A stretch of 64,000 nt of DNA from contig OZ024936.1 in the NCBI GenBank assembly GCA_964017235.1, positions 55,169,028 to 55,233,027 of the forward strand, read 5' to 3'. A program made the translations under genes and the position numbers. A model generated the notes under the pieces. It did not search any database. It had not been told where the DNA came from and worked only from the letters and a program-made list of their open reading frames with translations. Source of the DNA: Sabellastarte sp. h YS-2021. Taxonomy: Eukaryota; Annelida; Polychaeta; Sabellida; Sabellidae. How positions within the stretch are numbered: position 1 is the stretch's first letter; every line of letters begins with the position of its first letter. This document shows, piece after piece, positions 13,259-59,697 of this stretch.

Positions 13259-13307
13259 GCCGTCAAGTACACACGCGTTCTTTTCGGATCTTCAAAGATT
13301 TTTTACC

Positions 13308-14852
13308 ATGTCCGAAAAACAAAGGAAATGCTCCATTTGTGCAGGTGATATGTTGCCTTGGGACAACCATCAGGCCTGTTTAAAATGCAGAAACGACAAG
13401 AAAGGGAAGGATAAGTGTGTGATTGGTAAGGAAAGTGACTGTACTATTTGTGCTGGTGCTTTGAAAATTCCTCATAGAAAGAAATCTTCAAAAACTAAAG
13501 TTTCTGACAAGTTTGATGATTCGCTGTTGGATGAGCCAACTCCTTCAAAGTCCTCAACTTCCTCCACTTCTACTCCTGATTCATCTCTTCAGGAGATGTT
13601 AAAGGCTATGAATTCTCAGTTATCTTCCCTGGCTTCTCAATTTGAGGAGTTCAAGCGCAGGGATAAACCTTCAGCTTCCAAAACAACTCTTCCACACTCT
13701 CAGGAGCAGGGTATGTGTGCCCCTGCCTCCCAGAGCAGACCAGTCCCCTCAGAGGGGGAATTATCTGATGAGGAATCATCTTTACCTGCTACGAAACGCC
13801 ATAGATCCAGGTCTCCTCAGGGTGATTCAGAGACTCATTCCCAGGAATTAGATCCTTCCTATGTGGAAATGCTCAATGCCATCAGGAATCTGTTGGATTT
13901 AGAGGTACCACAAGTAGAGTGCCTTGTGGCTCCCTCTGCATTCTCTAAGAAACCTTCAAAGCAGGTGGTCAGAAAACAGAATTTGGCTTTACCTCCTGTT
14001 CAAGATATACAGTCCATGTGGGACTATAGATTCAGAAAGGCCTCTGGAACAACAGTAAAAGACAAGTCCAGCTCTGAATCTCTATCTCAGGGACAGTTTT
14101 TGGCCTTTGAGAGGCCTGACATGATTTATTACACCACTTCTCCTCAAAATACTCCTCTGAAAGCTCCTAAACTTCCTGACTCATACTTCAACATAGCTAA
14201 AGTAAAGTCTTTGTCATCTTCAATCTCTGTACCTTCCAAGCAGTTTATTGTACAGGAGACAGTTTGCAGAGAAAATGTTCAAATCCTGGGCCATGTTGTA
14301 TGGTTTAAAATGGCTATTGAGGAACTCAACAATAGGATCCAGGAGTTAGCTACTGAGATCAAATGTTCAGAAGATCTGGAAACCATCAGGGAATCAGCAG
14401 ATCTCATGATCAAATACTCTCAACTCCAGGCTTCTGTCACATCTTCCTTAGAAATAGCTCTGGATACAGTCCTCAAGCAGAATATGACTCTGGCCTGCAA
14501 TATGCTACTTGCAAGGAGAGACAGCTTATTGAAGGACTGCAGCTCAAAATTAGGTCCTAAGGACTTGGCAACCTTGCGTACAGACCATTTTGACCAACAG
14601 GAGGTCTTCAACTCGGATATTTTATCCCAGGTTGAGGATAACATGATCAAAAGATTGTCAATAATGAAGGAATCTGATTCCAAGTCATACAGAGACTCTG
14701 TGAAGAATTTCGATTTCGGGAGGTCTTCACATCCAAAGCCCTCACAGGAAGGTAACAGGTCGTTTCGTGACAAACGAACGCAGCAAAATTCAACCTATGG
14801 CCACTTCTCTGCGCGCGCATCGCGAGGAGGCAGAGGTGGAAAGAGGAAATGA
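13308..14852 (+). CDS. DIRS ORF1, Gag-like protein (514 aa)
   Basis: The ATG at 13308 opens a 514-residue frame just inside the left ITR. The N-terminus (residues 8-50) is a Cys/His cluster: CSIC, then HQACLKC, then DCTICAG, probably zinc-binding. A Ser/Thr/Pro-rich stretch follows, with a short RHRSRSP motif, then a helical middle region with heptad-like Leu/Ile spacing (about 330-420). The C-terminus is basic and Gly/Arg-rich (RASRGGRGGKRK), as in RNA-binding Gag tails. The position ahead of the RT frame and the Cys cluster fit the ORF1 of DIRS elements, which is thought to package the RNA. It overlaps the start of ORF2. No frame damage is visible. Confidence 0.85.
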   Translation: MSEKQRKCSICAGDMLPWDNHQACLKCRNDKKGKDKCVIGKESDCTICAGALKIPHRKKSSKTKVSDKFDDSLLDEPTPSKSSTSSTSTPDSSLQEMLKAMNSQLSSLASQFEEFKRRDKPSASKTTLPHSQEQGMCAPASQSRPVPSEGELSDEESSLPATKRHRSRSPQGDSETHSQELDPSYVEMLNAIRNLLDLEVPQVECLVAPSAFSKKPSKQVVRKQNLALPPVQDIQSMWDYRFRKASGTTVKDKSSSESLSQGQFLAFERPDMIYYTTSPQNTPLKAPKLPDSYFNIAKVKSLSSSISVPSKQFIVQETVCRENVQILGHVVWFKMAIEELNNRIQELATEIKCSEDLETIRESADLMIKYSQLQASVTSSLEIALDTVLKQNMTLACNMLLARRDSLLKDCSSKLGPKDLATLRTDHFDQQEVFNSDILSQVEDNMIKRLSIMKESDSKSYRDSVKNFDFGRSSHPKPSQEGNRSFRDKRTQQNSTYGHFSARASRGGRGGKRK

Positions 14853-16893: not shown

Positions 16894-17789
16894 CAGAATT
16901 TTTAAACTACCTGTTCACAGTCAAAAATCTCAAACCAGCTACAATCACTGGTTACAGAACAGCAATTGCTGATGCTTTGGGTTCACAGGGTGAATTCATT
17001 TCAAAAAGTCTAGAACTGAATAGACTTATTGCCAGCTTCACCAGGGATAGACCTAAACCAGATAGGTCCATACCTACATGGGACCTCTCATTGGTCCTCT
17101 TAGGTTTGACAAAACCTCCCTTTGAGCCTTTGTCAGAGGCTCCTTTGAAGTGGCTAACTTACAAGACAGTGTTCCTGTTAGCTTTAGCCTCAGGAAAAAG
17201 AAGGAGTGAGATACATGCTTGGACTCACTCTTCTGTCTCTTCAAGGAGAAATTGGTCAGAAGTTACTGTCTCTCCTTCTCCGGCCTTCCTGGCTAAAAAC
17301 CAATTGGCTTCGGATGGCCCTGATTCCATTAAGCCAGTAGTGATACCAGCCCTTACTACCATGTTGGACAGCTCACTGGTGGAGGACAAGTCACTTTGTC
17401 CAGTTAGGGCCCTCAAGGTCTATTTAGAGAAGACCAAATCCATGAGAAAGGGCAAGGCCCTGCTCTTTGTATCCCTTAGGGACGGTTATTCTAAGGATAT
17501 CACAAGAATAACCATTTCCCAGTGGATTAAACATACCATTCAAACTTGCTATCAGTCTTCAGATACGGCTGATCAACAGGTCACTCAGGTTAGAGCTCAT
17601 GATGTTAGAGCTATGGCTGCATCACTTGCATTTAAAGGAGGTATCTCCTTAGATCAGGTCTTGAGCTCCTGTTACTGGAAATCCCACAATACCTTTACAA
17701 ACTTTTATTTGAAGGATATTTGCTGGGAAAATGATGATATCTTTAAGTTAGGTCCCATTGTGTCTGCACAGCATGTAGTGAACAATTGA
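14880..17789 (+). CDS. DIRS ORF3: tyrosine recombinase, in an unusually long overlapping frame (969 codons)
   Basis: The frame is open from a TTG at 14880 (first ATG 14889) to TGA at 17789, overlapping ORF2 for 2 kb in another register. Only the last 340 or so codons (from about 16760) look like a protein domain. An N-terminal helical DNA-binding part (SRWTIYGQWC, EFLNYLF, ITGYRTAIADALG) is followed by the catalytic part with Arg in SGKRRSEIHAW (about 770), HDVR (about 906), and SHNTF with the Tyr in FYLKDI (about 941). This R...HxxR...Y set defines tyrosine recombinases, which integrate the circular DIRS DNA. The upstream 620 codons are Ser/Lys-rich and look like a shadow of the RT frame; the real start is probably internal or reached by frameshift or splicing. 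Confidence 0.88.
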   Translation: MAGMVKKPRPSQSSKFTATWLSPRFQVSSKIVENSAHFERISQQKQRWRPPRGSSGHAYKKGDSSCQKTHYSGILQQTFSGSKTHESLATSNRSKYVKPSFACTDIQDGNSRIYQEIDSKRGVGHLDRPHRRLFPCSNSSTISKISEISDQKRGFSVSSSSFWCRDSSPRVHSHCQRGQTHSSSQEPQNPSISGRLASSVTIKRSMSQRFGKVSSVGARTRLDYQFSKIGIDTHAKTGFSGLSFRPSEGSSVPNPEETRSAKRSDCFHQKVISLDSKKAHVAHRDFSFLGKNSATRKVTHETFPVVPKVALEVSPVIGHKDSGNRKFPEAPKVVGGYQKSHGRCSYPSSGTQHTGVYRCLTKRLGSSLKRDSVKWSLVKQGSPAPHQCIGAKSCSSSPKGLSGTLTRSNSAHLFRQQHSSSLSEQRRRHTFHRNVCSYLENSCIHKSQKNPDKGKTRTWIPKRHSRLSITKGQGHTDGVVTSPTDIQPNLQSLAHTNGRSFCNSSKLQTSNLCISCPRQKGLENRCIEYLLGRPRRLCLLSSSHPATSNSKNNNIPMQDDSTGSRVARDAMVLGSGGSLDQGTPTAPSLEDTSEATTFQQVPQQRGVPESTCVASGFQESNSGRFSSEVAERIKAPQRESSRKVYQSRWTIYGQWCTENKVDITSTAVPQVAEFLNYLFTVKNLKPATITGYRTAIADALGSQGEFISKSLELNRLIASFTRDRPKPDRSIPTWDLSLVLLGLTKPPFEPLSEAPLKWLTYKTVFLLALASGKRRSEIHAWTHSSVSSRRNWSEVTVSPSPAFLAKNQLASDGPDSIKPVVIPALTTMLDSSLVEDKSLCPVRALKVYLEKTKSMRKGKALLFVSLRDGYSKDITRITISQWIKHTIQTCYQSSDTADQQVTQVRAHDVRAMAASLAFKGGISLDQVLSSCYWKSHNTFTNFYLKDICWENDDIFKLGPIVSAQHVVNN

Positions 17790-20720: not shown

Positions 20721-20863
20721 TAACCCCAGTTGACCTTGAAGCAGGGATTAAAGGTCAAACTTGACACTCTCAAAAGATTCACAAGTCATGATTTCCGGTA
20801 AGTTATTTCCACATTTTGAAGCCCTAGAACCAATAATAAGTGAGATATAAGAGCTTTTTATCC

Positions 20864-21530
20864 CACAGCCTTTAAGGGCTGTGCAGGTATTGTTTTCACC
20901 CGTGGTGTCCGGATAGGTAATTGGCGAGAAAAAGTTTGTCCAGCCTGTTTCTCAGAAACCATAAGGTATAGGAAGTTGATACTTGGTAGGGACATTGTTT
21001 GGGAGGCTTATTTGTGCAACATCATGATGTGACCTTGATTTTAAGTTGCCATATGGACCTTGACCTATGGACTGTTGTCCAGGTAATATCTCTGAAACGT
21101 AAGATGTAGGAAGTTGATACTTGATAGGGAGATTGGTTGGGAGAGTAGGTGTGCGATATCATGGTATGACCTTTATTTGACCTTACCGTAGTGATCTTGA
21201 CCTATAAAAACTTGTATATCTCGAAAACTGTAAAGTGTAGGAAGTTTATACTTGGTAGGGACATTGGTTGGGGATGGTAGGTGTGCAATGTCATGGTTTG
21301 ACCTTGATTTGACCTTGCTATAGTGACCTTGTAAAATCTTGTCCTGGCTATATCTTGGAAACCGTAAAGTGTTGAAAGTTGATGGGGACATTATTTACAG
21401 GTGTACAACATCATGACCTTTAACCTTGTAGTGACCTTGAGTTTGAAAATCTTATCCATGCTATTTCTTGTATTCCATAAGGTGTAGAGGGTTGACACTG
21501 GTAGGGACATTGGTTACGGGGTGTGGGTGC
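20864..21530 (+). repeat. Hairpin-headed tandem repeat element, truncated copy
   Basis: It starts with the hairpin CACAGCC TTTAAG GGCTGTG (20864-20883), then GGTATTGTTTTCACCCGTGG, then four or five iterations of about 110-130 bp (TTGATACTTGGTAGGGACATTGGTTGGG, with GTGACCTTGA). Longer copies of the same family lie at 43422-44282 and 49166-49957. This one lacks their closing GGCTGTGGGGTA end. Confidence 0.75.
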
Positions 21531-24450: not shown

Positions 24451-24777
24451 ATACTTTACATAACCTGCTACCTACTCAGGTCTTTGATTTCTACTGGTGT
24501 TCAGGCTGTTGTGATGTAATTTTGGGTCATCATCTATGATGATGTGGTATAAAAATATACTATTAGTTTGTTAATGTAAGTGTGTGTTTTTAGAAGTGTT
24601 TCTGTGTTCATTTAATTACATACTATATTAATCTATGCTGAATAAGAATTTACCGATTTTTCAATATAAAATTTCAACAGGCGGGGGGGGGGATGATTTC
24701 CTAGGAGGGGGGAGGATTTCCTTTTACACTGGTCGTCTCCATCCATATGCTTCCAATGACAACTTCTCAACAAATGG

Positions 24778-24973
24778 GGGCCATGGTGGCAGAGTGGTAA
24801 CACTCTTGCCTCCCACCTCTGAGGCCGGGGTTCGATTCCTGGCACGGCCTCAAGTGGGAAAGCTGGTAGTTGCTTGCCGTTGGTCGGCAGTTTCCTCTGC
24901 CCTTCCAACTACCCGTCGTGATATGACCTGTACAGTGTTGAAAGCGACGTAAAACCCCAAATAAACAAAAAAA
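24778..24973 (+). mobile_element. tRNA-derived SINE (family 1) with perfect 13-bp target duplication
   Basis: The head has an A box (TGGCAGAGTGG) and a B box (GGTTCGATTCC). The tail ends GTTGAAAGCGACGTAAAACC and an AAATAAACAAA run. It is flanked by TCTCAACAAATGG at 24765-24777 and 24974-24986. The conserved tail and mollusc-like context suggest a V-type SINE such as RUDI (inference). A deletion in the body, compared with the copy at 51611, accounts for its shorter length. Confidence 0.93.
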
Positions 24974-35448: not shown

Positions 35449-36418
35449 TCAATGTGCTGTCAATTGTCGTTGAAAGGTAACAGCTACCATATCTGAAGGA
35501 TCATGATCCTGGGAGATGTAGTGCCATACCGCCTCAGAAGTCCAGGTACCATGGGACTGGATGTGTTGGAGTGGGATATTTGAATTAAAAGCAAGGGTCG
35601 CCCCAGATCTACGAAACGAATGAAATGTGATGTTTTTATCATGTAAATTAAGGAACTTTAAGATTTTTGCCAGGCTTTTTCTTAACCTTGTGTCTGAGAG
35701 AGGTACCCAAGACCCATAACACTTTACTTGAAAGAGGGGGGAATTTTTTTGAACCAGGGGAGTTTTTGAGAAGGTATTTGAGAGCCGAGACCGGACAAAG
35801 ACAAGAATTTTTTAGAAGTGGAATTTTTAGTATTTTTATTTTGTCTCTAAACTGCAGTGTTTTGGACCACTTTACTACTATGTGAGCTCCAGGAGGGGCA
35901 AAAATAATGTCGCCTCTTGCTAGCTGTTTTAAAGGGTCGAAGGAGTTAATTGAGTGAGGGACTAGGTTGGAGATCCTGAGGAAACTGAAGAAAGACGGAA
36001 GAAATGCGGCTTTGTACGTCATGCCCAGGTACATTCTTTCACAGTGGTTGACAATTCGAGTGAGCATTGCTATGTCTATAACCGTCTTGATATTAGGGTT
36101 AAGAGGGCGTGAACGCATCAAAGATCTGGTGAATACTTTTGTTCTAGGATCAAGGAACGCACTACAGTTGACGCCATGATTACCTAACATTGTTTTTATG
36201 GCAGATATGTAATTTATGATGCTTGCAAAGGAAACTTTGTTGAAAGTTAAAAATTCTAGAAATGCTAATAGCAATTCGATTGAAATATCATGAACGCTAC
36301 GTGAAGCATACACACAAAAAGCCATAAAAATTCGAAATTTGGCATTATATGACTTTGAGGTGGAGGATGCATATATTGAATTCATTCTCAATTTTGCCTT
36401 GGCTGTAAGTGCTGCCAC
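35449..36418 (-). pseudogene. Tyrosine recombinase of Ngaro-like element, one frameshift
   Basis: The ORF from ATG 36418 has an N-terminal helical domain (SYNAKFRIFMAFCVYASRSV, IINYISAIKTMLGNHGV) and the first catalytic Arg in FFSFLRISNLVPHS, followed by VVKWSKTLQFRDK. It runs off frame at an A-rich stretch near 35685. The next frame supplies ITFHSFRRSGATLAF (HxxR), SHGTW and WHYISQ with the nucleophilic Tyr, ending at a stop at 35449. All catalytic residues are therefore present across one single-base shift. The ORF start overlaps the RNase H end. It would integrate the element DNA. Confidence 0.85.
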
Positions 36419-36441
36419 TTGAGAAGGGAGACCTGAAAAAT

Positions 36442-37638
36442 TTATATACTCCAGTTGATGACAGTGGCATTAATCGGAATTTGATCCCATGTAGCAAATG
36501 GCAACAAGGTTTGAACCCTATTCCTATGATTTTGGCTTATAAACCATCTCGATAGACTATCTGCTATGGCATTGTCCTTACCTCTTATGTGCACTGTCCT
36601 AAGACATATGTCATATTCTGCTGTACTTAGCCATACGTTCCTTGCTATTGCAGCCAGTGTGAGATCTTTAGTTTTTCCTGAACTTAACACTGTAACTACA
36701 GCTTCATTGTCACAATGTATACGGATCGTTTTACCTGACCACAAGGAGCCCCATGTTCTTAAAGCCACCATGATATTCAACATTTCATAGTGAACTATAG
36801 TCATATTGTCGTATTCAGTAGGGGTTTTCAAAGCGTGCACTCTGTTACCCCATCTGGCTCCTATACCTTGCAAGCAAGCATCCAGCTCTATCTCGTGATG
36901 AATTTGGTTATGAACAAAAAAAGGCTGTACCATTAAATTTAGGAACAAATTCCTTAAACCAATTTAGGTCCTGTTTAAAATTTTGTGTCAAAATGATTTT
37001 TTCTTGCTTATGAGAACTTCTCAGCAGTTCTAACATTCTATTTAAGAAGAAACGAGAAGATTTGACACATTTTGTGATATATAAAAGTTTGCCCAGAAGA
37101 GATTGTAATTCTCGCTTAGTGCAGTGTGTCTTAACTGACCACAAGTTACATATATTTAGAATATCTTGAATTTTTTCTTCAGTGATGGATACTGTGAAAT
37201 TTTCAGAATTTATTTCTACCCCAAGACATGTTACTTTGGTAGCTGGAGTAACCACCTTTTTTCTCGCTTATATCAAAGCCCAGATCTAAGAGAAGGTTAT
37301 ACAAATAGTCAAAAGATTGGTAAGCTTGACTGCAAACAGCATGTCCAATGATATCATCAATATAATTTGTAACTTGGAAATTTGACTGAGCCATGATATA
37401 CCTGATAGCATCGCTTATTCTCTGAAAGATGGCCGAACCGTGCTTAAATCCAAAAGGTAAACAAGAGTCAAAATAGTAGCCTTGGAGATGTAATCCTAAG
37501 AGATTATAGTCTTTTGGATCAAGTTTAACATGCCTAAAGGCTCTGCTAAGGTCTGTCTTGTAGAGAAGTGATCCTTTGCCATTTTCCTTAACTTTTTGAG
37601 TAATAGTATCTATGGTTGGTAAGGTCAGTATGAAAGGA
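36442..37638 (-). pseudogene. Reverse transcriptase core and RNase H of Ngaro-like element
   Basis: From 37638 downward: LYKTDLSRAFRHVKLDP (first Asp), CLPFGFKHGSAIFQRIS and the catalytic YIDD within VTNYIDDIIGHA. After a shift near 37255 the thumb/connection follows (TCLGVEINSENF, KRELQSLLGKLLYITKCV). After another shift near 36930 comes RNase H with acidic residues in IELDACLQGIGARWG, HYEMLNIMVAL, IHCDNEAVV and GKDNAIADSLSRW. The upstream part of RT lies at 50892-51610, across the inserted transposon. The decay is light. Confidence 0.88.
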
Positions 37639-37790
37639 CCCAGCCGGCATGCGACGTAATTGTGACGTTGAGAATATGTTGAAATGACATTGTGACGTCT
37701 TGTATGTTTTTACAATGTCTTTACAACGTTATTTAAAAGACGTCAGTTTGAGGTTTTTGAAAGACGTCATATTAACGTTTGATGACATCA
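37639..37790 (+). repeat. Left subterminal motif zone of the 13.25-kb transposon
   Basis: GACGTAATTGTGACGTTG, TTGTGACGTC, TACAACGTTA, AAGACGTCA (twice) and TTAACGTTTG occur within 130 bases. The right end has the corresponding cluster in inverse orientation. Confidence 0.7.
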
Positions 37791-37799
37791 TAATATATA

Positions 37800-37890
37800 G
37801 AAAAGGGAAACAGGAAGGCGTGCATCAGCCATGTTGGAAAGACAAGGATTATTTGGAGGGAGATTTTAATTTAAAATCAACAAATATCAG
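37800..37890 (+). other. Possible first exon inside the 13.25-kb transposon
   Basis: A short stretch with ATG (37830) ends at a good donor CAG|GTAAGA at 37890/37891. The reading after the ATG is LERQGLFGGRF and then a stop, so this is more likely leader than coding. It lies just inside the left subterminal repeats, where a transposon gene would begin. Confidence 0.3.
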
Positions 37891-39926
37891 GTAAGATATT
37901 TTCCATCTACTGTCTTAGTTATTGTTATATTTATCTGTTGTATGTATAGACTCTGGTGGCATATGAATTGTATATCTTTGCGCTGGTATCACCTATAATT
38001 AGCAGTTGTTTTTTTTCTCCCTGTTAAGTACACTGCTCCCCATTCTAACTTGACACAACCTAACCAGAAAAGTGTAATTTATGCTGAGCTTTTGTGCAGT
38101 AACAAGTTTTTTTGGAGAACAAGTTTTAAATGTATTTCACTGACATAAATCAAAATGAAAAAAATAATTTGATGTATACTGTATTGCTTTTATGGGGCAA
38201 CACGTACCTACAGGCATACACAGTTCTGTAGCCATATTGACCTTCTCTATAAGAGCACTGGGTTTGATGTGTAAACAAAGACCATGTGTTGCAAATATCA
38301 ACACAAGTTTTACTGAAACAAGGAAGTTTATTTTGAATTTTTATGCAACTGCATATTTCATGCAGTGCAGAAGCCTTTCCTCACAGACAGCCATGTATTT
38401 TCCGTGTTGTGAAAGTTTCTAAACTTAAACTCATCAAATTTAATAATTCTTGCATTTTTCGCTGTTGACAAATTGTTTGAAAAGAAACTATAACTACAAA
38501 AAGAATAGTTTGTGTTCAATTATTATTATGATGGTGAATATAAGTACATGTTGTTTTCAATTGACAGTTGTAAATTGCCTCATTCTTCACTCTGATGCTT
38601 TTATATTGCACAGTGTAAAAATACAACTTGTCTTCTAACTGCAGCTTTACAAGGCAAGCTGAAATATGTGTGTGTGTGTGTTTTTTCTTTTGTGTAGATC
38701 AATATACAGATACTGGAAATATAAGAGGACAGGCGTAATGTACTAGCCTTGCTGTGTGATTACGTAGTTCAACATATTTGTAAACATTGCAAAGAAGTCG
38801 GTGCATAGCAACAAATATGTGCTTTCTACTCTAGCCATCTAGCGAGGACTACACTAAGTAAATATATATGGCATTAATACTTATAATGTTGGTAGCCCCT
38901 TATTGGATTTTGTACTTAAATGTGCGTCAAAGGATTAATTTTGTTAGTGTCATATGACATTGGTTATAATTGATGAAATTATGTAGTTTTGACTTCTGAT
39001 TTGTTATAATTGTCATTCTACGGATATGAATTTTTCACAATTAATCAAAAAGCACACCCCATGCATTCATTTTATTTTGTGCCTGTCACTAAAATATTTG
39101 CAAGTTTTTTAAAACTTAACATTCACCAAACCAGATATAAAGCCAAGTTTATGTAAAACAGGAACCCCCACCTCCTTTGTGCAAGATAGCCTTGGTAAAG
39201 GTTCAAGTTTCTTTGAAATCAGAAATGTACATGCATTGAAAGAAGTGCAGCCCATACATGTACTTTGCATACGTGTATGGGCCAGTAATATAATTTCTGT
39301 TGAAATCGGTACCTTAATACAAACCTTATTTGTAGGGATGTCACGATTCAGAATATTTGATGTCAGCTAATCACTGATTACTATTTGTGACAACACCAAA
39401 TAATCATCAGATTTATAAAATACCACAAATTTCATGCTTCATGGTCTAAAATGTGATAGAAATGTTGAGCATGTGAAATAAAATGAAAATATATGTTCAT
39501 AATCTGTAAAAGTCATAAAATTTGTCATTTTCCTGCATTTATGGTATGCGTTATAAAAGATATTACTCAGGTATATGGTACTTCAGGTTTTACATAAATG
39601 TATAAACAATACAAAAAACATGGCTGTAGTTTGATTTTAACTTATTTTAGGTGACAATATGCAAGCTAGTATGTGATGGATTCAGACCTTTTAAATTATC
39701 CCTGTTTATATATGATATCAATATATAACATATTCTATCTGTTGACAATCAGTTGGCTAGTTGTGATCTTGAACCCTACTTATTTGGTTACCTTATATGG
39801 TGTAATGTAGGGCTGTAATGAATACAAATAATTCAGGTTGATCACGGATAAAACTTGACATCAATGTCTCGCAAGGTTTAATATCTACCAATGTGAAATT
39901 TCTATTTACTGTTAGTTTTTTTCCAG

Positions 39927-40108
39927 CAGTCACTGATGAGGTCCAGAGGAGCCTGGATATAGCTAAGCAGGGAGGTGGACACGGTTGTTCCTGCCAAGTG
40001 GATTGATGGAAAGCATGTATTTTGGCCAAATAAGAAGGAGTCAGAGGCAATTAACTCGAGAGAAAGGACTGATAAAGTTTGACTATTTGAAAACCAAGTT
40101 CCTATCAA
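39927..40108 (+). pseudogene. Exon-like remnant of a transposon-associated protein (VVPAKW...FWP motif)
   Basis: The acceptor TTAGTTTTTTTCCAG ends at 39926 and the donor CAA|GTAAGA starts at 40109. One frame reads DTVVPAKWIDGKHVFWP then NKKESEAINSRERTDK, with stops near both ends. The VxVVPxxW...WP pattern resembles the N-terminal segment of uncharacterised, multi-copy animal proteins that often carry DUF4806 (recollection of the family; not verified). As the only recognisable coding remnant between the transposon ends it may belong to the element. Confidence 0.4.
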
Positions 40109-40189
40109 GTAAGATATTCTAAAATATGATTACTGAAAGGCCCATCATTAGAAGATTACATCTCCTAATTTTGCATTATTCAAGGTAAA

Positions 40190-42065
40190 GTTGCTTTTTC
40201 CGGCGTCTGGTGTCCGGCGTCCAGACTCTTGGCTTCCACTCATTTGAAGGAAAAGTATTTATCCAATCTTTACCAAATTTGGAACGAGTGTTTATTGGGT
40301 TAATAGCTTGCACGGGATTGCTTTTGGTGAAGATAACTTTATAGCTAGCTGAGTAATAGCTACTTAACTAATTTTGTGTACTTCTTTGGTTTCCGGGCAT
40401 TTTAAGGAAAACCATTTGACATATCTACAAAATTTGGTGTGAGCAATAGTTAGGTCGATAGCTTGCTTGGGATTGCTTTTACTTTGCCAAAAATGGAAAA
40501 ACACAAATTTGCTTGTATCTCCGTAACCGTGAAAGATAGAGCGATTTTGTCGAAATTTTTGCGCCATAGGGTATCTGGGCAATGTACTCTTGGCAATTTT
40601 CAAAAAAAATTTTCCCCTCCCAAAAAATGGCGGCCATTTGGAATTTTCAAATTTTTGCCAAAAATTGAAAAGCACAAATTTGCTTCTATTTCCTTAACCG
40701 TGGGAGCTAGAGCAATTTCGTCAAAATTTTCGACCCACAGCATATCTGAGCAATGTTCTCTTGGCAATTTTCAAAAATTTCACCTCCCCAAAATGGCAGC
40801 CATTTTGAATTATTGAATTTTTGCCAAAAGTGGAAAAACAAATTTGCTTCCATCTCCTTAACCGTGCGAGATAGAGCGATTTCGTCAAAATTTTCGACTC
40901 ACAGGGTGTCTAAGAAATGTACTCTTGGAGATTTTCAAAAAATTTTTCCTCCCCAAAAATGGCGGCCATTTTGAATTTTCGAAATTTTTGCCAAAAATGG
41001 AAAAACAAAAATTTGCTTCTATCTTCTTAACCATGCCAGATAGAGCGATTTCGTCAAGATTTTCAACCCACAGGGTATCTGAGCAATGTAATCTTGGCAA
41101 TTTTCAAACAATTTTCCCCTCCCCAAAAATGGCGGCCATTTTGAATTTTCGAATTTTTTCCTAAATTGAAAACCACAAATTTGCTTCTATCTCCTTAACC
41201 ATGCGAGATAGAGCCATTTCGTTGAAATTTCCGACCCACATGGTATCTGCAAAGTATACCCTTGGCAATTTTCCAAAAATATTCCTCTTCCCACATGGCA
41301 GCCATTTTTAATTTTTGCCAAAAATGCAAAAAACACAACTTTGCTTCTATCTTCTTAACCGTGCAAGATAGAGCGATTTCGTCACAATTTTTCACCCACA
41401 GGTTATCTAAGAAATGTATTATTGGCAATTTTAGAAAAATTTTCCTCTTCCCAATTTGGCGACTATTTTTAATTTTCGAATTTTTGCCAAAAATGGAAAA
41501 ACACAAATTGGCTTCTATCTCATTAACCGTCCGAGATAGAGCGATTTTGTCAAAATTTTCGACCTACAGGGTATCTAAGCAATGTACTCTTGGCAATTTT
41601 CAAAAAATTTTCCTCTTCCCACATATGGCAGTCATTTTGAATTTTTTAATTTTTGTCAAAAATAGAAAAACACAAATTTGCTGATCTCCTTAACTGTTTG
41701 AGATAGAGCAATTTCGTTGAAATTTTCGACCCACAGGGTATCTAAGCAATGTACTCTTAGCAATTTTCAAGAAATTTTCCTTCTATCTCCTTAACCATGT
41801 AAGATAGAGCGATTTCGTCAAAATTTTCGACCCAACCAATGCAAAAAGGCATGAAGCAGAAATAATTTACATGTATACTAATAAATATTTAAGCATCATT
41901 GATATATTTTACAAATGAAACAGGGTCTTGTAAGACTACTGTACAATTTTGGCAAAAGGTTCACGGGGTGGACATTACACATGATAATGTGTTTTCTTCT
42001 ATGCTATCCTGTTTCTATTCATATGTTGCAGCTACTATCAACAGGGTGTCCTATTTCTAGTTTAA
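40190..42065 (+). mobile_element. Second copy of the 169-bp-core dispersed element
   Basis: The 5' module (GGCGTCTGGTGTCCGGCGTC, TCATTTGAAGGAAAAGTATT), array and 3' module (GCAAAAAGGCATGAAGC, CATTACACATGATAATGTG, CTATTTCTAGTTTAAAC) match 740-3815. The CCACCCCCC hairpin of copy 1 is absent. It lies inside the 13.25-kb transposon. Confidence 0.8.
40509..41850. repeat. Degenerate 169-bp tandem array, about 8 units
   Basis: Degenerate TTGCTTCTATCTCCTTAACC recurs near 40509, 40680, 40843, 41013, 41181, 41341, 41507, 41678 and 41780, with spacing 160-171. Units differ from each other far more than those at 1178-3600, so this array is older or no longer homogenised. Confidence 0.9.
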
Positions 42066-43090
42066 ACCTAATATTAGGTCCAATTTAATTTATTATCAAA
42101 AGTTTTCTTACTTTGGTACTTATTTCACTTTATTAAGTAACAGACTTGTTTAACACCAAGTTCACTTTGCTCCCAGGTTGTGCACTTAAAAATTTAAGTC
42201 ACTAATTTTGAGTCATTATTTTTCAATACCTGTTTAGTTTAATTTCTTGTTATCACCCATCTCAACCATTTAGAAATATTTGGTTGCAATGCAACAACTA
42301 TTGCCTCCTTCAGGAAAAAGCTTAAACTTTTATGTTTGCAAACGCCTATCTGCCATAGCTTTCTCATGCATTTCTCATCACAAGCCAAATCACATACCAC
42401 ATTTTCAGGATTAGAAGTAGATAATCTTGTCAGGGCCATATATCGGATATCAAAAGATAAAATCTCGTATTTGCCTCAAGTACTGAGAGTTACGGATCCA
42501 GTTTTAGAAACAAGACAATTACAAAACCAGCTGTGTGTGTGGTATATGTGATACATGATTCAATAATAGGGAGTGACAAGTACAAATAATTGTTGGTGAC
42601 ATTTTGAGTTGACATCGAGCCCTCTCAAAGTTTAGTATGTACCTTGACAGGAAACATCATCAAACATGGTGGTTCCTGTAAATGAGAAAATAAAAAACTG
42701 ATGTCTTGAATCATTTGAATTAGCTGATGTTACAATACTACATGTTGTGTTAAAGTTGTGTATTATGCGATTTAATGCAAGTAATTTGTGTTAGTAATAT
42801 ATTAGTATGGGAAAAAGTAACCAGTTAGATGGCAGTTTATATATAATTGAGCACTCCACTCTTAAAATTAGGATTGAATTTTCATGAAATTTGACTCATT
42901 TACTGAGCATCGTTTACTCAATTTCACCTCCATTAAATAGAAATGGAATAAGTGTAACTTTTTCTTTAAAATCCACCTGAAATTCAATTTTATTGGAACA
43001 CACTAGTAAATGGCAAATATGTTTGTCTTATAACCATAATGTTCATTTATTACTTACTTTTACAGTTTATCTTCATATTTTTGTTGAATC
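42066..43090. other. AT-rich interior of the large transposon
   Basis: A short ORF at 42336-42551 has no recognisable motif. The sequence looks intronic or inert. Confidence 0.35.
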
Positions 43091-43097
43091 AATATAG

Positions 43098-43169
43098 GCC
43101 CAGTTGTTGACAGTTCAGATACTGATGATGAAACAATTGACGAGAGATGTAATTCAGGATTTGCAATCA
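43098..43169 (+). other. Exon-like segment in the 13.25-kb transposon
   Basis: The acceptor AATATAG ends at 43097 and the donor CA|GTAGGT starts at 43170. The 72 bases are open in the frame reading PVVDSSDTDDETIDERCNSG, an acidic Ser/Asp-rich linker type. It is downstream of, and on the same strand as, the exon-like remnant at 39927-40108, so the two may belong to one gene. Confidence 0.35.
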
Positions 43170-43421
43170 GTAGGTTTCATTTTTTAAATATTTATTTGCT
43201 GACAACCGTTAGATTAAATATATTGCAACTGAAGTGATTTGGTATCTTGTAAGTAAAAAGCACGAAACATCTTTAAATCTGAATCTGTCTTTAGTTACTC
43301 CAACTATCATTGCCATTAATTTGCCATCAGCATGACACCAGAAGGATAAAATGCATGTAACCATTGCATCTTTGAAATTATCACTTTACGTAGGAAGGTA
43401 TTGTGAATTTGGTTTTTTACT

Positions 43422-44282
43422 CCACAGCCATTAAGGACTGTCGGGTATTGTTTTCACCCATGGTGTCCGGATGAGCAGGCAAGTGGATGGCGGGAAAAAG
43501 TTTGTCCAGGCTTAATCTCAGAAACCGTAAGGTGTAGGAAGTTGATACTTGGTAGGGACATTGGTTAGGAGGTGTAGAAGTGCAACATCATGATGTGACC
43601 TTGATTTGGTCTTTGACCTCGTCATTGTGACCTTGACCTATAAAATCTTTTCTGGGCTATATCTTGGGAAGTGTAAGGTGTAGGAAGTTGCTACTTGGTA
43701 GGGATATTGGTTATGGGTTGTAGGTGTGCAACATCATTTTGTGACCTTGATTTGACTTTTGACCTTGTTGTAGTGATCATTAGTTTTAAAATTTTGTCTG
43801 GGCTATTTCTTGGATTCCATAAGTTTTAGAAGGTTGACACTTGGTAGGGACATTGATTAGGGAGTGTATGTAAATGTATGTGTGCATCATGGTGTGACCT
43901 TTTGGCTCTGCCAAAGTGTGTTCATCTGCCATATTTGAGATATCTTTATCTTATGACAAAGATGTATGGATTACTGCAACTGATTATTATATGCACTTTA
44001 ACATAATTATGCTACTTCCATTGACAGTTATTCTCCGATTAATAAATTTTATAGCTTTATAGTTTTGATGTATTATTTTGTAATAATGATTAATGCTGTC
44101 ATGATGTCATCTTGCTATTGAATTGTTTTAATACTGTATCTTTACATACATTTTCTTTCTCTTAGATGTTATTTTCTCTACTTAAACATCATTTGGACCT
44201 TTATATAAGTGACACTGGGCTGAAAGTATCCTAGTCTGATGTACTTCTGTACATCATGGTGTTGGAAACTATTTCCCCAGGC
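43422..44282 (+). repeat. Hairpin-headed tandem repeat element, full-length copy
   Basis: It runs from TTACTCCACAGCC (43422) to GGCTGTGGGGTA (near 44271-44282), inverted ends, with about 110-130-bp iterations inside (GTAGGAAGTTGATACTTGG, GGGACATTGGTTA). The head is GGTATTGTTTTCACCC, as in the copies at 20864 and 49166. No coding capacity. Confidence 0.75.
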
Positions 44283-44299
44283 TGTGGGGTACAGGCATC

Positions 44300-45430
44300 T
44301 CTGATGCTATCTTGGTGAATTTAAAGTCTCAGTACAACTCAATGATGGGTTACTGGTCCTATGGCAGATGTTTATAAAATAACATTTTTATTCAATCCTT
44401 TTCTCAGTTATTTTAAGTTTACAGTTATTTAAAGGTAATAATCACAAAAGATTGTCAAGGCGTTAGGAATGAGGGTCTATTTTAATGCATTATAATTTGA
44501 AAAATGTGTTTAATTTTTATCTTTTCTGATTCTTTACAGCACAGATTATTTTCAGAGAGTAGTCCAGAAAAGTGTTGACTGCAATGAGAGTGAAATGGAA
44601 AGTGCTGTACAAGCTTCTTAACTATACCCCAGATGATGTTGGTGGTGGGGGACGTAAATAGGTCATTTGTAGTGCTGGGAGACCTAAATACAGTGATAAA
44701 AATGGGCCCTTGCCAATGTGTGTAGACAACTTTCACATTAATATAAATTTAAAAATATATTTCTTGCTGTTTGAAATTCCACCATTTGTTTACATCTAAT
44801 GTTAATTGCTTTCATAAAGTTTCCTATCTTTTATTGTGGAAATTGGCCGGTTTCACTGCAGAGCTACTTGCCAACTTAGTGAGTGCCCAGAATTTTCATT
44901 TCTATCACTGAATTATATGGAGATTATGAGAATATGTTCAACTTGTAAACTAGTGGTAGAACGATTATCTTCAGACATTGAATGGTTGGTCAAAATTCAC
45001 TGTCGTAACGATAATCAATCCGAAGTAGTTCCTATCGATTCGTCATTATCACTGAAAATTTCATAATATTTAGTCACCTTTCCTTATGTTTCTAAATGTG
45101 CACGTTTTTGAAAATATTCTGGGCTGTTTCCTTAATAAATTGACAAATTTGTCACGAATTTTGGGTTTGTTTATATCTGCCGCCATATTTACAGGAAGTA
45201 AGTTGTTTTCGGTAGATTCTAAATGTCGGAACACCGTTATTCTTACTACATTAACATACACTTCAACCCGGACTTTGTTTCATGATATAGCTAACCGTGG
45301 AATCGATTATGGCTCGATCATCGCTCGGAAAAATGGACAATTAATCGACCATGCAACTCGGAGGCGATTCCCATCACTATTGTAAACAAACTACACAGAT
45401 CTTCACTGACGTTTTCTAATTGTCAATTAT
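44300..45430. other. Interior of the large transposon with an unassigned ORF and an internal duplicate
   Basis: An ORF at 44836-45066 has several Cys (CRATCQLSEC, RICSTCK) but no recognised domain. Bases 45115-45300 are homologous to 48555-48590 plus 48830-48960 (AATAAATTGACA..., GTTTATATCTGCC..., TCATGATATA), a diverged duplication. Confidence 0.4.
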
Positions 45431-47140
45431 TATATCCCCAGACGAAAGTCGGGGATATATTGGATTCAGGTCCGTCGCGCCGCCGCTGCCGCCGTAGAAA
45501 TTTCCTTGTGGACGCGATAACTCAAAAACCAATTAATATTTTTTTTTCAAACTTAGTACACATGTTAAGGATGCCCAAAGGAAGATCCCTATTTTAAGGT
45601 GACCTTAAACTCCAAATAATAAAGAACTTATGGCCACCTTAAGGTCAGAAATTGCACTTTTGACCACTTAGAGCCCTCTAGGTCACAAACTATGAGGCGT
45701 ATCTGGCTTAAATTTTACCTGAGAACACATTAATATATTCTTAGTACATGTGCCGAAAATCAAGACTTTAAGTTGAGGAGAAAATTGTGTTTGGGGCCCA
45801 TAAAGACCCCACTTAGGACTTTTTTCCTAGATTTTTAACATATTTTGCCCTATAATTTGGAAGTGGTAATTCTGATGAGTCTCAAACTGCTCTAGGTGTA
45901 ACTTTTATATGTAATCCTTGTCTGTGAAAAATTTAAAGGCTGTAGGTTTACCTGTTAGGCCGACTTGAGGTCTCAAAATTGCCCACAGAGACCCAATTTA
46001 TGGACTTTTTGCCACCTTCAAGCACTGTAGCTTTCAAACAATGTCTCTCATCTAAGTGAAATATCATCTGAGAATAAATCAATATGTTTTTCTTGTATGT
46101 ACTCCAAAATTTAGGCCTTTAATAGACATTTAACCCATGTATGAGGACCATAAATCCCCACCCGAGTGACCCTTTTTAGACATTTTTCACATATTTTGCT
46201 CTGTAACTTGGAAATGGTAAGTCTGAGAAGTTTCAAACTGTATTAGATACATATTCTATGTGTAATCTTAGTATGTGACAAATTTTAAGTCTGAAGCTTT
46301 AATTTGAAGGCCACATTGAGGTCTCTGACGGGCTCCCAAAGACCCAGTATTTGGACTTTTTGCCACCTTTAAGCCCTGTGACTGTTAAACTATGTGACTG
46401 ATAGGGCTGAAATCTCATCTGGGAATACATTATTATGTTCTTTTTACATGTGCCAAAAATCATGGCTTCAAGTAGACATTTAAACTGTGTATGAGGACCA
46501 TAAACACCCACCCGAGTGACCCTTTTAAGACATTTTTCACATATTTTGCTCTGTAACTTGGAAATGGTAAGTCTGAGAAGTTTCAAACTTTATTAGATAT
46601 ATATTCTATGTATAATCTTAGTATGTGACAGATTATAAATCTGAAGCTTTAATTTGAAGGCCACTTCGAGATCTCTAAAAGGCCCACAGAGACCCAATAT
46701 TTGGACTTTTTGCCACCTTTAAGCCCTGTGACTGTTAAACTATGTGATTGATGGAGCTGAAATCCCATCTGGGAATGCATTATTATGTCCTTTCTACATA
46801 TGCCGAAAATCAAGGCTTTTAGTAGACATTTAACCTGTGTATGAGGGCCATAAACACTCACCCAAGTGACCTTTTTTGACATTTTTTTCCGTATTTTGCC
46901 CTGTTATTTGGAAATGCTTAGTGTGACAGGTCTTAAACTGTATTATATATAATTTTTTTTGTTATGTTTGTCCCCCAAAAAGTTTCAGCTCTGTAGTTTA
47001 ATTACTAAGGTCTCTTTAACAATTGTAAAATGCCCACAGAGACCCAGTTTATGGATATTATACCACTTTAAAGCCCTGTAACTGTCAAACTATGTGGGTC
47101 ATAGAGCTGAAATCTTTGAATTTTTCAAAGGAAGTGCCTG
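45431..47140 (+). repeat. Hairpin-headed element with about 351-bp tandem units
   Basis: The head is a hairpin TATATCCCC a GAC gaa aGTC GGGGATATA (45431-45459), then GTCCGTCGCGCCGCCGC. Tandem units follow; GGACTTTTTGCCACCTT recurs at about 46003, 46354 and 46705, with more divergent relatives before and after. Short - strand ORFs are repeat artefacts. Confidence 0.8.
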
Positions 47141-48590
47141 TCTATTTAAATTTTTATTAATAATGTTATGGCTATCTTAGGCTTTTAAGTACTTATTTTT
47201 GTGTGTTATCTCTCTGCTTGCTGAGTTTTTAACTTTTTAAAATGAAACTGGTTAAACATATTCAAGTAAATGGACACTGTTATTTTCTGGTGAGCTATAA
47301 GTCCAATATTAATGAAATTATACCCTTATGTAGTAAAAATAGGGGATTTTTAACACTCAACTAGCCCAGTTTTATTCAGTTTGCCTCAGTTAATTTTGAC
47401 ACAGTTCCTACAGTTACTAACTCATTTCAGTTGATAATCACATTCTTAAAATTCTCAATTCTGACTTATTATTATAAATCTGTTCTTGTGGTTGATAATT
47501 TATATTTAATTCTGGAGGTATATAATTTTCCTGTTGGACATTCCTTATTTATATATTTGATTTTATTTTAGTGATAAGATTAACTGAGCTTTTTGTATTT
47601 GATTACCCCTTTTGTTTGTTTACCATTTGTGCTGTATTTAGTCCCACCCACCATCCACCTCTGGGACCTCCAGCTATTGAGTGACACTAAATAAACAAAG
47701 GTATTGAATGATATCAAATGAGAAACAAAGAACCAGACTTTTCAGTGGGGTTGCAGATCTTCTGTAACAGTGAGAGAGGTGTGGAGAAGGGGAGAGGGGT
47801 GGGGTGGGGTTGGGAGATGGGGTTTGCTTCATTATCTAATAAGACAAAGGGGAGTCAGAACTGAGATTGTGTCACATATTTAGGTTGCATATATATGGAC
47901 CACATATATAGGAATTGAGGAAATGAATAACTGAAAAACAATGCAAATTCTAAAAATAATATAATAAAATAATAATATAAATAATATATAATTTTTAAAT
48001 AATATTTTATTTGTGAACAAATATAGAAACAGATATGCGCTTTTGGGATTATTAATCATTTAAATACTTTGAAAATAGGTTCAGAGTCACCCTTTGCAGG
48101 AAGATTGAAAAGTATGATGAGTTGAGTTAGAAATAATATTTTATTTGTCAACAAATATAGAAACAGATATGCTCTTTTGGGATTATTAATTTGGAATGGA
48201 CATTCAATCATCAATCATTTAAATACTTTGAAAATAGGTTCAGAGTTATCATTGCAGGAAGATTGAAAATATGCTCTGTTGAGTTATGTATTCGGCATCT
48301 GGGGATACACCCATCTTCCTTGGGAAGATATAAACTTAGTAGATTGATGTGCTGAAGTTCATATAACTTTTCCCAAGATTTATGGCATACAACAAATGGC
48401 TTACATAAAAAATTCCCGATCAAAACCTGTGGCATGAGTGATGACCTGTCTGGGGATATGTTGGCGCCGAGTTGGCCCAATCTAGTTCAGCTTATATCTT
48501 ACCTTTCATGATTTATTCAATGTCCACATTTTTTAATATTATAGGTATTTTTACTTAATAAACTGACAGTTTTGTTTTGAATTTCGAGTT
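47141..48590. other. AT-rich interior with a tandem near-duplicate
   Basis: About 48000-48110 and 48130-48275 are near copies (AATATTTTATTTGTGAACAA, CAGATATGC...CTTTTGGGATTATTAAT, TACTTTGAAAATAGGTTCAG). A G-rich stretch lies at 47780-47820. No gene is recognised. Confidence 0.5.
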
Positions 48591-48591
48591 G

Positions 48592-48826
48592 GGGGTCATG
48601 GTGGCAGAGTGGTAACACTCTCCCCTCCCACCTCTGAGGTCAGGATTTGGTTCCCAGCCCAACCTCAAGTGAGAAAGCTGGTATTTGCCTACCGTGGGTT
48701 GGAAGTTAACAGAACAGGACCTTGGCCAACTGTATGTACTGGTTTCCTCTGCTCTTCCAACTAGCCATAATGATATGACCTGTACACTGTTGAAAGTGAT
48801 ATAAAACCCCAAATAAATGAATAAAT
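48592..48826 (+). mobile_element. tRNA-derived SINE (family 1)
   Basis: A box TGGCAGAGTGG, a B box degraded to GGATTTGGTTCCC, tail TTGAAAGTGATATAAAACCCC. It splits one copy of a duplicated segment whose unbroken relative is near 45155. The flanking GAATTTCGAGTTG and GATTTTTAGCTTG may be a diverged target duplication. Older than the copies at 24778 and 51611. Confidence 0.85.
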
Positions 48827-49165
48827 TGATTTTTAGCTTGTTTATGTCTACCACCAATTTTACAGAAAGGGATATTTTCATTAGATTCTAATATCGGAAC
48901 GTTATTCTAATCGGATTAACCAATACTTCATCCCGGAAAGTGTTTCATGGTATAATGACCACCAATGGAATTAAAAATATCCATTCTGGTCAATTATACA
49001 AATAAATGGATGTGTAGGCATTGTATACATAGTGGTGGATCACACTAAAACTTTTAATTTATTGGTCACTCAAACTTTGTCAAGACATTTTGTGGTAGTT
49101 GCCACAATCCATTGTAAAAGTGGCCTTTATGAGTAACAGTTTTAAAAAACTCTGTCAAGGGTGTT

Positions 49166-49957
49166 TTACTCCACAGCCTGTAAGGGCTGTACAGGTATTG
49201 TTTTCACCCATGGTGTCCAGATGGGTGGGTGGGCAGTGGGAAAGAGCTTGTCCAGGCTGTATCAGAAACCATGAAGTGTATGATTTGGCTTAGGTGTGCA
49301 ACATCATGGTGTGACCCTGTTTTGACCTTAGACCTTTCTGTAGTGACCTTGAGCTTGAAATGTCTTATCTGGCTGTATTTCAGAGACCATAAAGTGTAGG
49401 AAGTTGATACTTGGTGGTAACATTGGTTAGGGGGAGTAGATGTGCAATGTCATCATATAATCTTGATTTGACATCAGACCTTGCTGTAGTGACCTTGACC
49501 TTTAAAATCTTTCCCAGGCTATATCTTGGAAACCACAAGGTTTAGAAAGCTGATACTTGGGAGTGACCTTTAATCTTGGGCTTGCAAAGGTGTGTTCAAA
49601 TGCCATATTTGGGTCATATTTCTCTTATCACAATATATGGATTACTGATTATTACATGTGCTTTTACTTAATAGTGCTATTCCATTGTCAGCTGTACTTC
49701 CAAAAATAAATTTTATATCTTTATAATTTTTATTTTATTGATTAATGTTGTCATATCTTGCTATTCAGTTGTCTTGTTTTAATATTTTATCTTTACATAC
49801 TTTGTATCTCTCTTAAATATTACTTTCTCAATGTAAAAATTAATTGGACCTTTACATAACTGATAGTGTTTGCTCTGAAAGTCTCTTGAGCTTGTACTAT
49901 TTTCTTCTGTAACCCATGGTGGCAAAAACTATTGCCCAAGGCTGTGGGGTATGGTCA
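49166..49957 (+). repeat. Hairpin-headed tandem repeat element, third copy
   Basis: Ends TTACTCCACAGCC (about 49166) and GGCTGTGGGGTA (about 49957), internal iterations as in 43422-44282. Both copies lie in the same orientation inside the 13.25-kb transposon and share sequence beyond the iterations (for example CTTTATAATTTT... and TTTCTTCTGTA). Confidence 0.75.
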
Positions 49958-50275
49958 TCCCTAATGATATTTTTACCACTGAAATAATTTGTTCACCTAA
50001 AAACAGATTAAATATGGACTCTGTTGGGCTCTGTTTCAAATAACAGCAATTTTATTCCTTTATTCTTGTTCTCTCACATAAGTATACTGGTGTCCAAAGA
50101 ATACATACAAGCCCATCTTCTTTAGGCTGCTACAAATGTTAAAGAACTATATTTTTGAAGAGGAAAGCGTAGCAAAATTGCATTTTAAATTGCAGAGGTT
50201 TAATCATGTGTGGTCAAACTGAAAAAAAAGTTTGTAAATTGTTAAATTATATGCATTATTTTGTAACCAACATTA

Positions 50276-50467
50276 TTGTGCTTTGCTGTCCAATATTTTA
50301 ACTGCAACATGCTCACTGGAAAATATGTGAAACAATGTAACCAGACAGTAAATATCAATTACTCTGTTGTCCGTGTATCAATAAGACACTGTTTTGAACA
50401 ATGTCTTAAATGTTTGCATCACTCTAATTTTAGACAATCAGTATTGGAATATGTAACTTGCAGTTGA
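50276..50467 (+). other. Unassigned 63-codon open frame near the right end of the large transposon
   Basis: It is Cys-rich (RHCFEQCLKCLHHSN), ends in a TGA, and has no upstream context that proves translation. It may be a terminal exon remnant of the element or chance. Confidence 0.2.
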
Positions 50468-50629
50468 CTTTAAGCTTATAAATATTTGTAAAGGAAGATC
50501 CTAGCTGCCGGGAACCTCTTCCTCTCATTGTAAATGGCAGATATATCCGAAAAAATAATAAAAATTAAAGACTTATATGTTGTGTCTATCTTAAAGGCAT
50601 AGTTAGTTATGAAAACATATTTATGTTGT

Positions 50630-50891
50630 ACCAACATTGAAATGGGACATTTAAACAATGTAACACTATGACATTGCTGCAACATAAAACTGTTACGTTG
50701 TGACAATGTCAGAATATGATGTTGTTACAACGTGGAACTGTTACGTTGGAAAAACGGTATGTTCTGACATTGTAACAATGTCATGAAATTACGTTGATAC
50801 AACTAACACATCTGCATGAATTTACAACGTTGAAACAACATCAGTGCACAACATTGTTTAAACGTCATTCCAACGTAATTTGCCTGCTGGG
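50630..50891 (-). repeat. Right subterminal motif zone of the 13.25-kb transposon
   Basis: Repeated ACAATGT(C), GTTACGTTG, ACAACGT and AACGTCATTCCAACGT motifs end in TGCCTGCTGGG at 50891. It is an inverse counterpart of 37639-37790 but longer and denser. Confidence 0.75.
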
Positions 50892-51610
50892 GAGTACCTA
50901 AGTACGACTCTGGATCCACACCCGTATTCACTGAACTACCATGAGGAAAGCTTAGATCAACAATGACTCGTCTGTGTTCTGCTCCAGGTTTTTCACTAGT
51001 TAAGAAGGGGGAGAATAGCTTTAAATTGTTTTTCTTCATTAATATAAGTTTTAACATCTTTTGTATGTTGTACAGCCGAACTGTGCTTTTTAATTTCATA
51101 TGAGAGAGGGGAATTCGCATTGAAGTAGAGAGGGAAACCGTAGCGTATCAAACTGCACAACTGATCATCCCAATAACCAAACAAACGCGTCTGCCATTTG
51201 TCGGGATTTTATTGTCCTTTAACTTGGACCTGAGCACCCAAAAAATTGTGATTTTTGGCATTTTTCACAGTATTATGTAGGAGTTTGATATCAGTAATCG
51301 TGGGATTTCTGCAATCTGCATTCGGTGTAACTAAATCCCCCAATGGTATAAATCCATACTTGCCACTCATTTGTTTATTCCATTTATCAAACGTGACATT
51401 ATTTCTCGCATTTTCAACCTTTTGTCTGTGACGAGGTTTGCAGCGCAGTTCCAGATCGTATTTATCAGCATTTTCTGACAACACCCATTGTTTAACCTGC
51501 TTACCTGTATTTCTTGTAGCACTCACCCGCTTTGTGTCACTATTCGTGATTTCTGAACCTTTTAATTCAAACTGACACTCACTTTTATCGCTACTACTTA
51601 CACCAGAATT
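50892..51610 (-). pseudogene. Gag-RT linker and N-terminal RT part of the Ngaro-like element
   Basis: On the - strand, below the SINE: VSSSDKSECQFELKGSE, YGFIPLGDLVTPN and NFLGAQVQVKG, a stop, then FGYWDDQLCSLIRYGFPLYF, RRVIVDLSFPHGSSVN and DPESYLGTP, which is RT finger sequence. The frame ends exactly at the transposon border and continues at 37638. A stop and one frameshift (near 50980) are visible. Confidence 0.8.
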
Positions 51611-51841
51611 AGGGGCCACGGTGGCAGAGTGGTAACACTCTCGCCTCCCACCTCTGCGGCCAGGGTTCGATCCCCGTCATGGCCGTAAGTGGGAAAGCTG
51701 GTAGTTGCTTGCCGTTGGTCGGCAGTTTACAGTACAGAACCCTAGCAAACTATATGTACTGGTTTCCTCTGCCCTTCCAACTACCCGTCGTGATATGACC
51801 TGTACAGTGTTGAAAGCGATGTAAAACCCAAATAAACAAAA
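51611..51841 (+). mobile_element. tRNA-derived SINE (family 1) with 12-bp target duplication
   Basis: A box TGGCAGAGTGG, B box GGTTCGATCCC, tail GTTGAAAGCGATGTAAAACC. TACACCAGAATT flanks it at 51599-51610 and 51842-51853. It lies in the Gag/RT linker of the - strand Ngaro-like element; the codons on either side belong to the same frame. Confidence 0.93.
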
Positions 51842-59400: not shown

Positions 59401-59464
59401 TTATAATTAAAACTTCCCATTATTTCCTTTGTCCATCGCCTATTTCCTCATCCGAATAGGTCTA

Positions 59465-59697
59465 GGGGCCACGGTGGCAGAGTGGTAACACTCTCTCCTC
59501 CCACCTCTGAGATCAGAGTTCGAATCCTGGCCCGACTTCAAGTGGGAAAGCTGGTAGTTGCTTGCCATTGGTCGGTATTTTACAGTACAGAGCCTTGACT
59601 AACTGTATGTATTGGTTCCCTCTACCCACAAAACTACCCGTCGTGACATGACCTATACAATGTGTTGAAAGCGACGTTAAAACCTAGATAAATAAAT
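59465..59697 (+). mobile_element. tRNA-derived SINE (family 1)
   Basis: A box TGGCAGAGTGG, B box AGTTCGAATCC, tail TTGAAAGCGACGTTAAAACC. No clear target duplication. Body length is as in the 51611 copy. Confidence 0.9.

Follow-up and report, generated by a model that had tools for sequence, protein, structure and literature searches.

Insertion of the element into a reverse transcriptase gene

The window considered here is the whole 64,000-bp stretch C14:55169028-55233027, and the genome searched alongside it comprises 1,785,957,881 bases in 647 contigs. Between positions 37639 and 50891 of the window lies a 13,253-bp block that interrupts the reverse transcriptase (RT) gene of a retrotransposon. 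Very probably it is a large non-autonomous CACTA/EnSpm element of the TRC branch, mobilised by a tnp2-type transposase that is encoded at another locus. The features that define it and its host are as follows (strand in brackets; a dot where none applies):

37639..50891 (.): complete element, very probably non-autonomous CACTA/EnSpm (TRC-like), 13,253 bp; defined by its ends, target-site duplication (TSD), empty sites and two near-identical full-length copies
37639..37649 (+): left terminal inverted repeat (TIR), CCCAGCCGGCA; identical to the right end at 10 of 11 bases
50881..50891 (-): right TIR, CCCAGCAGGCA read inwards, from the letters of the right end
37637..37638 (.): TSD, GA, left copy
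50892..50893 (.): TSD, GA, right copy
37653..37780 (.): left subterminal ACGT-core motifs, 7 within the first 200 bp
50695..50876 (.): right subterminal ACGTTG/CAACGT motifs, 7 ACGT cores within the last 300 bp
37206..37637 (-): host RT, downstream part (RVT_1, Pfam E 9.8e-10)
50892..51147 (-): host RT frame, upstream part; open frame continuing at 37637 once the element is left out
35452..36963 (-): host retrotransposon, pieces resembling RNase H and tyrosine recombinase, their frames broken (tyrosine-recombinase, or YR, type)

The element opens with CCCAGC at 37639 and closes with GCTGGG at 50891, the last base of a right end that reads TGCCTGCTGGG. An earlier, sequence-only reading of the window had described these inverted ends, with GA on both sides, and its coordinates proved exact. 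It had also seen iterated ACGTTG-type motifs near both ends, and the counts bear this out: the seven ACGT cores at either end compare with 0.63 per kb in the interior, an enrichment with Poisson probabilities of 8e-11 and 1e-9. Repeated motifs near both ends are a trait of CACTA elements.

Removal of the block together with one GA leaves an open minus-strand frame across the junction (...GVDPESYLGT/PFILTLPTID...), so that the host RT codons are indeed in register, as had been claimed. The host is most likely a copy of a YR retrotransposon, since RVT_1 is followed by weakly scoring RNase H-like and tyrosine-recombinase-like pieces. Of these, RT_RNaseH (8.5e-5) and Phage_integrase (6e-5) fall below the curated Pfam cut-offs, while Phage_int_SAM_5 (1.6e-4) is barely above its own. 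The host copy was already broken by frame changes further along. A second retrotransposon occupies window positions 13257-17789 (+), where overlapping frames of 531, 729 and 978 aa include an RVT_1 match at E 1e-22; it is far less degraded than the host copy at 35.4-51.1 kb.

Sites without the element were sought with a 400-base query in which both flanks were joined, with the junction at base 200, and 40 of 422 candidates were scored. At least 43 matches were obtained, and at least 38 of them span the insertion point without the element: 8 are near full length (1 or 3 to 400) and 30 are partial but cross the junction. The remaining matches comprise the window's own two flanks and three that lie beyond base 320. 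Three of the 38 empty sites were read at base level and are gap-free over the junction, with 112/116 bases identical. Empty sites of this kind, which the sequence-only reading had asked for, thus occur elsewhere in the genome.

A dispersed family of full-length copies

Queries made from the two 200-base ends each hit at least 40 sites, with most or all of the query aligned. Exact end patterns occur genome-wide 64 times for the left end and 61 times for the right, and reversed versions of the patterns, which served as control, do not occur at all. These ends form 54 facing pairs within 60 kb, the window pair included, which range from 6,439 to 31,810 bp in length (median 10,378 bp) and total 624,029 bp, or 0.035% of the genome; no pair below 6.4 kb was present among the 54 found by exact end patterns. 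Ten left and seven right ends are unpaired; for three left ends a right end does lie within 60 kb, but in the wrong arrangement. Clearly, the two termini co-occur in other copies, where the opposite had been named as an outcome that would refute the element.

Seventeen family copies, that of the window included, were compared for their borders, TSDs and arrays. CCCAGC stands at both ends of all 17, and an exact 2-bp duplication flanks 16 of them; a 3-bp duplication flanks none. Among the first 16 copies, 15 such matches would be expected by chance with a probability of ~1e-16. The duplicated letters vary from copy to copy (GA, CA, AT, TG, AG, TT, AA, CT), and TA is found in 0/16.

The window copy shows 42 differences from C4:36606745-36619996 over 13,250 bases and 36 from C11:94318531-94331767 over 13,234, and the three 13.25-kb copies are 0.27-0.32% apart, with indels of 1-2 bp plus one of 17 bp. 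The two sister copies are full length and stand at unrelated sites, where they are flanked by duplications CA and AT, and their alignments to the window copy begin and stop at its borders, at most one base off. Other copies are similarly close, C7b differing by 0.22-0.25% from C5a and C1a and C6a from C6b by 0.43%, and others are looser, reaching 1.8% in C11b/C7a. The family is dispersed in the genome, and the element moved recently as one 13.25-kb unit.

The large size of the block and its lack of recognisable coding content could conceivably reflect an assembly join at 37638/50892, which the sequence-only reading had itself named as refuting, or a segmental insertion that involved no transposon. 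Against this stand the empty sites, the TSDs in 16 of the 17 copies, and the near-identical copies at unrelated sites that stop at the same bases. The probability left to this explanation is negligible; a join or a segmental duplication is ruled out by the empty sites together with the unrelated flanks of the copies. The borders are thus fixed independently of the RT frame, by full-length copies, by sites without the element and by the 2-bp TSDs.

A different set of elements with CCCAGCAGGCAC ends was also seen, including one of 835 bp (L046, 686-1520) that contains CAACGTTG motifs and is flanked by AG at either side. The genome has 40 exact ends of CCCAGCAGGCACGTCAACGT type.

Superfamily and coding relatives in the same genome

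Transposase_21 (PF02992, tnp2) has 49 matches in this genome and 0 in 14 control genomes. The commonest coding family, with a 910-aa frame, carries CCCAGGCGAA at both ends and measures 14,037 bp in 10/10 copies that have both ends (11 were examined). Its end pattern CCCAGGCGAAATGG occurs at 28 places (control 0), of which 21 are found 3.3-4.7 kb away from a tnp2 match and seven have none nearby; in 18/19 copies with the 910-aa frame, the right end and the tnp2 match are exactly 3,515 bp apart. An exact 2-bp TSD flanks four of ten copies (chance 0.004), and the other six pairs share one base. Two further tnp2 families, with 605-aa and 903-aa proteins, have apparent CCCTGC ends, one end each. 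Duplications that match imperfectly may be characteristic of TRC insertion (the 910-aa family; L041, L060-L080; SmTRC1, with 7/14).

The sequence-only reading could not match the terminus and TSD to a named superfamily. The window element fits the CACTA/EnSpm superfamily, animal TRC branch, in every feature that can be seen without coding content, its CCC ends and 2-bp TSD among them, and the same genome contains a CCCAG-ended Transposase_21 family. It is a new family of an already known kind of transposon.

Could the likeness to CACTA be coincidental, and the element a non-autonomous member of some different cut-and-paste superfamily whose ends resemble CCC/GGG? The ends are short and the family is without a proven intact transposase, which would suit such an origin. 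On the other hand, a variable 2-bp TSD is unfit for the targets of the obvious candidates, the tnp2-coding family of this genome is CCCAG-ended, and TRC elements elsewhere combine CCC ends with a 2-bp TSD, so that another superfamily appears improbable. The target sites are TTAA for piggyBac, TA for Tc1/mariner and a 3-bp TWA for PIF/Harbinger. All three were tried and rejected: the variable 2-bp TSDs are not TTAA, no TWA or other 3-bp duplication is present in any of 17 copies, and none of 16 duplications is TA.

Tandem arrays and the size of the element

Tandem arrays make up 23% of the window copy, in three blocks:

40483..41780 (.): 168-bp tandem array, 7.8 copies; ~87% like an array outside the element at 1174-3592
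43527..43868 (.): 146-bp tandem array of 2.3 copies, with relatives at window 20855-21524 and in the coding 910-aa family
45719..47115 (.): 350-bp tandem array of 4.0 copies, unmatched in the rest of the window (E 1e-5)

TRF arrays (score at least 150) cover 7-26% of the 17 copies, although ~1.6 kb of the C5b span is flanking sequence. In 13 of the 17 a unit near 146 bp was called, and some of the copies have units of 168, 63, 350 or ~450 bp. Outside the element, the 168-bp array at 1174-3592 has 14.4 copies, and the 288 bp that follow its counterpart within the element are 91% like window 3538-3817, beside that outside array. This shared tail suggests that the array and its tail may have entered an ancestor of the element as one repeat.

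The sequence-only reading had considered the size unusual for a cut-and-paste element and had put part of it down to later repeat insertions. Neither view is supported: the 910-aa coding family of this genome is constant at a similar 14 kb, and later insertions do not account for the size, since identical arrays are present in both sister copies, with indels of 17 bp at most. Since the arrays are present in all three 13.25-kb copies, they moved with the element as a unit and are older than this insertion. What does stand is the description of a cut-and-paste transposon that splits an RT gene in frame.

Several other repeats were noted in passing. The 168-bp array and its ~280-bp tail at window 1174-3817 may be one mobile repeat, and the 605-aa tnp2 element at L043 5388-6001 is apparently inserted in a 168-bp satellite array. 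A repeat of at least 90 bp has four window copies that are 79-89% alike (24777-24865, 48586-48680, 51612-51700, 59463-59553), one of which (48586-48680) lies inside the element. Scans of the window for tRNA and Rfam families gave no match.

Coding content and a candidate transposase

The window copy contains nine open frames of at least 100 aa, five of them within the 168-bp array and the longest 152 aa, and seven other family copies contain frames of up to 205 aa. Hidden transposase exons were considered and rejected: among the frames listed, those shared between copies fall in several reading frames on either strand, and the nine frames of the window copy yield no Pfam match below E 0.079.

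The search for a transposase elsewhere drew on three lists of matches, for Transposase_21 (49), for the 605-aa protein (75) and for a 669-aa query (70), which together define 77 distinct tnp2-like places. None of these searches gave a match in the window, and none of the Transposase_21 or 605-aa matches falls inside a family pair. The 669-aa protein was the sole query to reach C7:15134633-15135607 (-), which lies in a 656-aa open frame within a 28,154-bp copy at C7:15114142-15142295. Over 325 residues this divergent tnp2 relative shows the DYMH..CLG block (DYMHLVCLG), KP, D.PA and C..C as in tnp2 proteins, and it is a candidate transposase source for the family. The 656-aa and 669-aa proteins are placed in the tnp2 family through their likeness to proteins that match PF02992. 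In the downstream flanks of eight tnp2 families, no GCTGGG end of the family type was seen.

Several results weigh against the assignment to CACTA with a tnp2-type transposase acting in trans. For the nine frames of the window copy, Pfam matches do not improve on E 0.079, and no transposase-like frame of at least 110 aa was seen by eye in the seven other copies. The family has no proven transposase, with just one of the 77 tnp2-like places inside any of the 54 pairs. Neither the 656-aa piece nor the related 669-aa protein matches PF02992 by itself, and the 656-aa frame, which is possibly nested, has no near copy, its best other DNA match being 65%. Finally, copy C8 has unlike flanks, GG/CC, and is the sole exception to the TSD among the 17. 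Given this Pfam result and the absence of tnp2 matches from the window, the window copy is taken as a large non-autonomous element, presumably moved in trans.

Whether the 656-aa frame is native to the 28-kb copy is a matter on which the chances are evenly balanced. It may belong to a different CACTA element nested there, the true partner of the family being lost, too divergent or outside the assembly. The window itself is an instance of such nesting in this genome, and the occurrence of the frame in one of 54 pairs, without a near copy, is consistent with it. The frame lies, however, on the minus strand, which is also the strand of the copy's left end, and random placing would put ~0.03 (0.027) of the 77 places inside the 54 pairs, though transposons are not placed at random. 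The array order is mixed and gives no clear sign either way: in the 28-kb copy a 63-bp array is followed by 146-bp repeats (L044 stretch), an order and direction like those of C18a, C1b and C8 and reversed in C7b, C5a and C1a. The 63-bp minisatellite at L044 3332-5353 (-) also forms a 674-aa repetitive open frame in this copy, but its coding is doubtful, as the unit length itself keeps the frame open.

On the CACTA explanation, a transposase encoded elsewhere in the genome, probably of tnp2 type to judge from the ends and coding relatives, would recognise the CCCAGCNGGCA ends and might bind the subterminal ACGTTG-type motifs. It would excise the entire 13.25-kb block, which would then insert at a 2-bp target of free sequence, in this case within the RT gene of a probable YR retrotransposon copy that was already broken.

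A broader idea is offered tentatively, and we think it rather unlikely as it stands: that a giant (6.4-32 kb) non-coding CACTA family ferries satellite-like arrays, with units of 168, 146, 63, 350 and ~450 bp, driven in trans by a rare 656-aa TRC transposase, perhaps from a single gene in the 28-kb copy. Whatever the fate of that idea, a fully bordered and recent CACTA/TRC-like family has been obtained, and such ends can move 13-kb blocks without recognisable coding content, together with arrays found elsewhere in the genome. The classification of transposons is unchanged by the element.

Comparison with known elements

Literature searches with the left-end sequence returned, among the matches listed, no work on DNA transposons by title. 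Those on mollusc EnSpm/CACTA elements and TSDs turned up only Tc1/mariner work, and those on bivalve EnSpm with satellites or tandem repeats gave nothing on such elements by title; the family may still be published. The bivalve record is thin, one curated library holding two CMC transposons according to the part of that report concerned with it (PMC10294476). The family would add to this record if the genome were that of a bivalve.

The closest likeness is to SmTRC1 and the other TRC elements of the CACTA superfamily in Schistosoma, Aedes and Tribolium. As given in the relevant sections of the original account, animal TRC elements have CCC-first ends as here (Aedes CCCAGTCAAC) and 2-bp TSDs, found in 7/14 copies of SmTRC1; copies occur in retrotransposons with paralogous empty sites, and there is an internal tandem-repeat region (PMC1636069). 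SmTRC1 is described there as ~4.5 kb long with a Transposase_21 protein, whereas the window element is 13.25 kb without a recognisable coding frame and, unlike SmTRC1 in that description, has three long arrays and ACGTTG-type subterminal motifs (PMC1636069).

Spongebob_HMa (EnSpm-4N1_HM) of Hydra is also similar in the portion of its description that covers it: its terminus CCCAGCCAACATTGAC opens with the same CCCAGCC, it makes a 2-bp TSD, and its transposase was likewise not recovered (PMC4298943). At 5,836 bp against 13.25 kb, it is likened by terminus and TSD, not by its interior (PMC4298943).

Within the same genome, the 910-aa family (L041, L042, L059, L060) resembles the element in its CCCAG ends, similar length, motif-rich subterminal regions and 2-bp TSD (4/10). 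It also shares 146-bp-type repeats with the element, up to 84% over 282 bp, but these are no proof of kinship because such repeats also occur outside elements. It differs in coding for Transposase_21, in a subterminal motif round CCATGG and in its TIR. Plant CACTA elements make 3-bp TSDs and have CACTA core ends, unlike those seen here. The large ones nonetheless belong to the same size class as the window element, the Rim coding elements averaging 14.1 kb in the figures quoted in PMC1636069.

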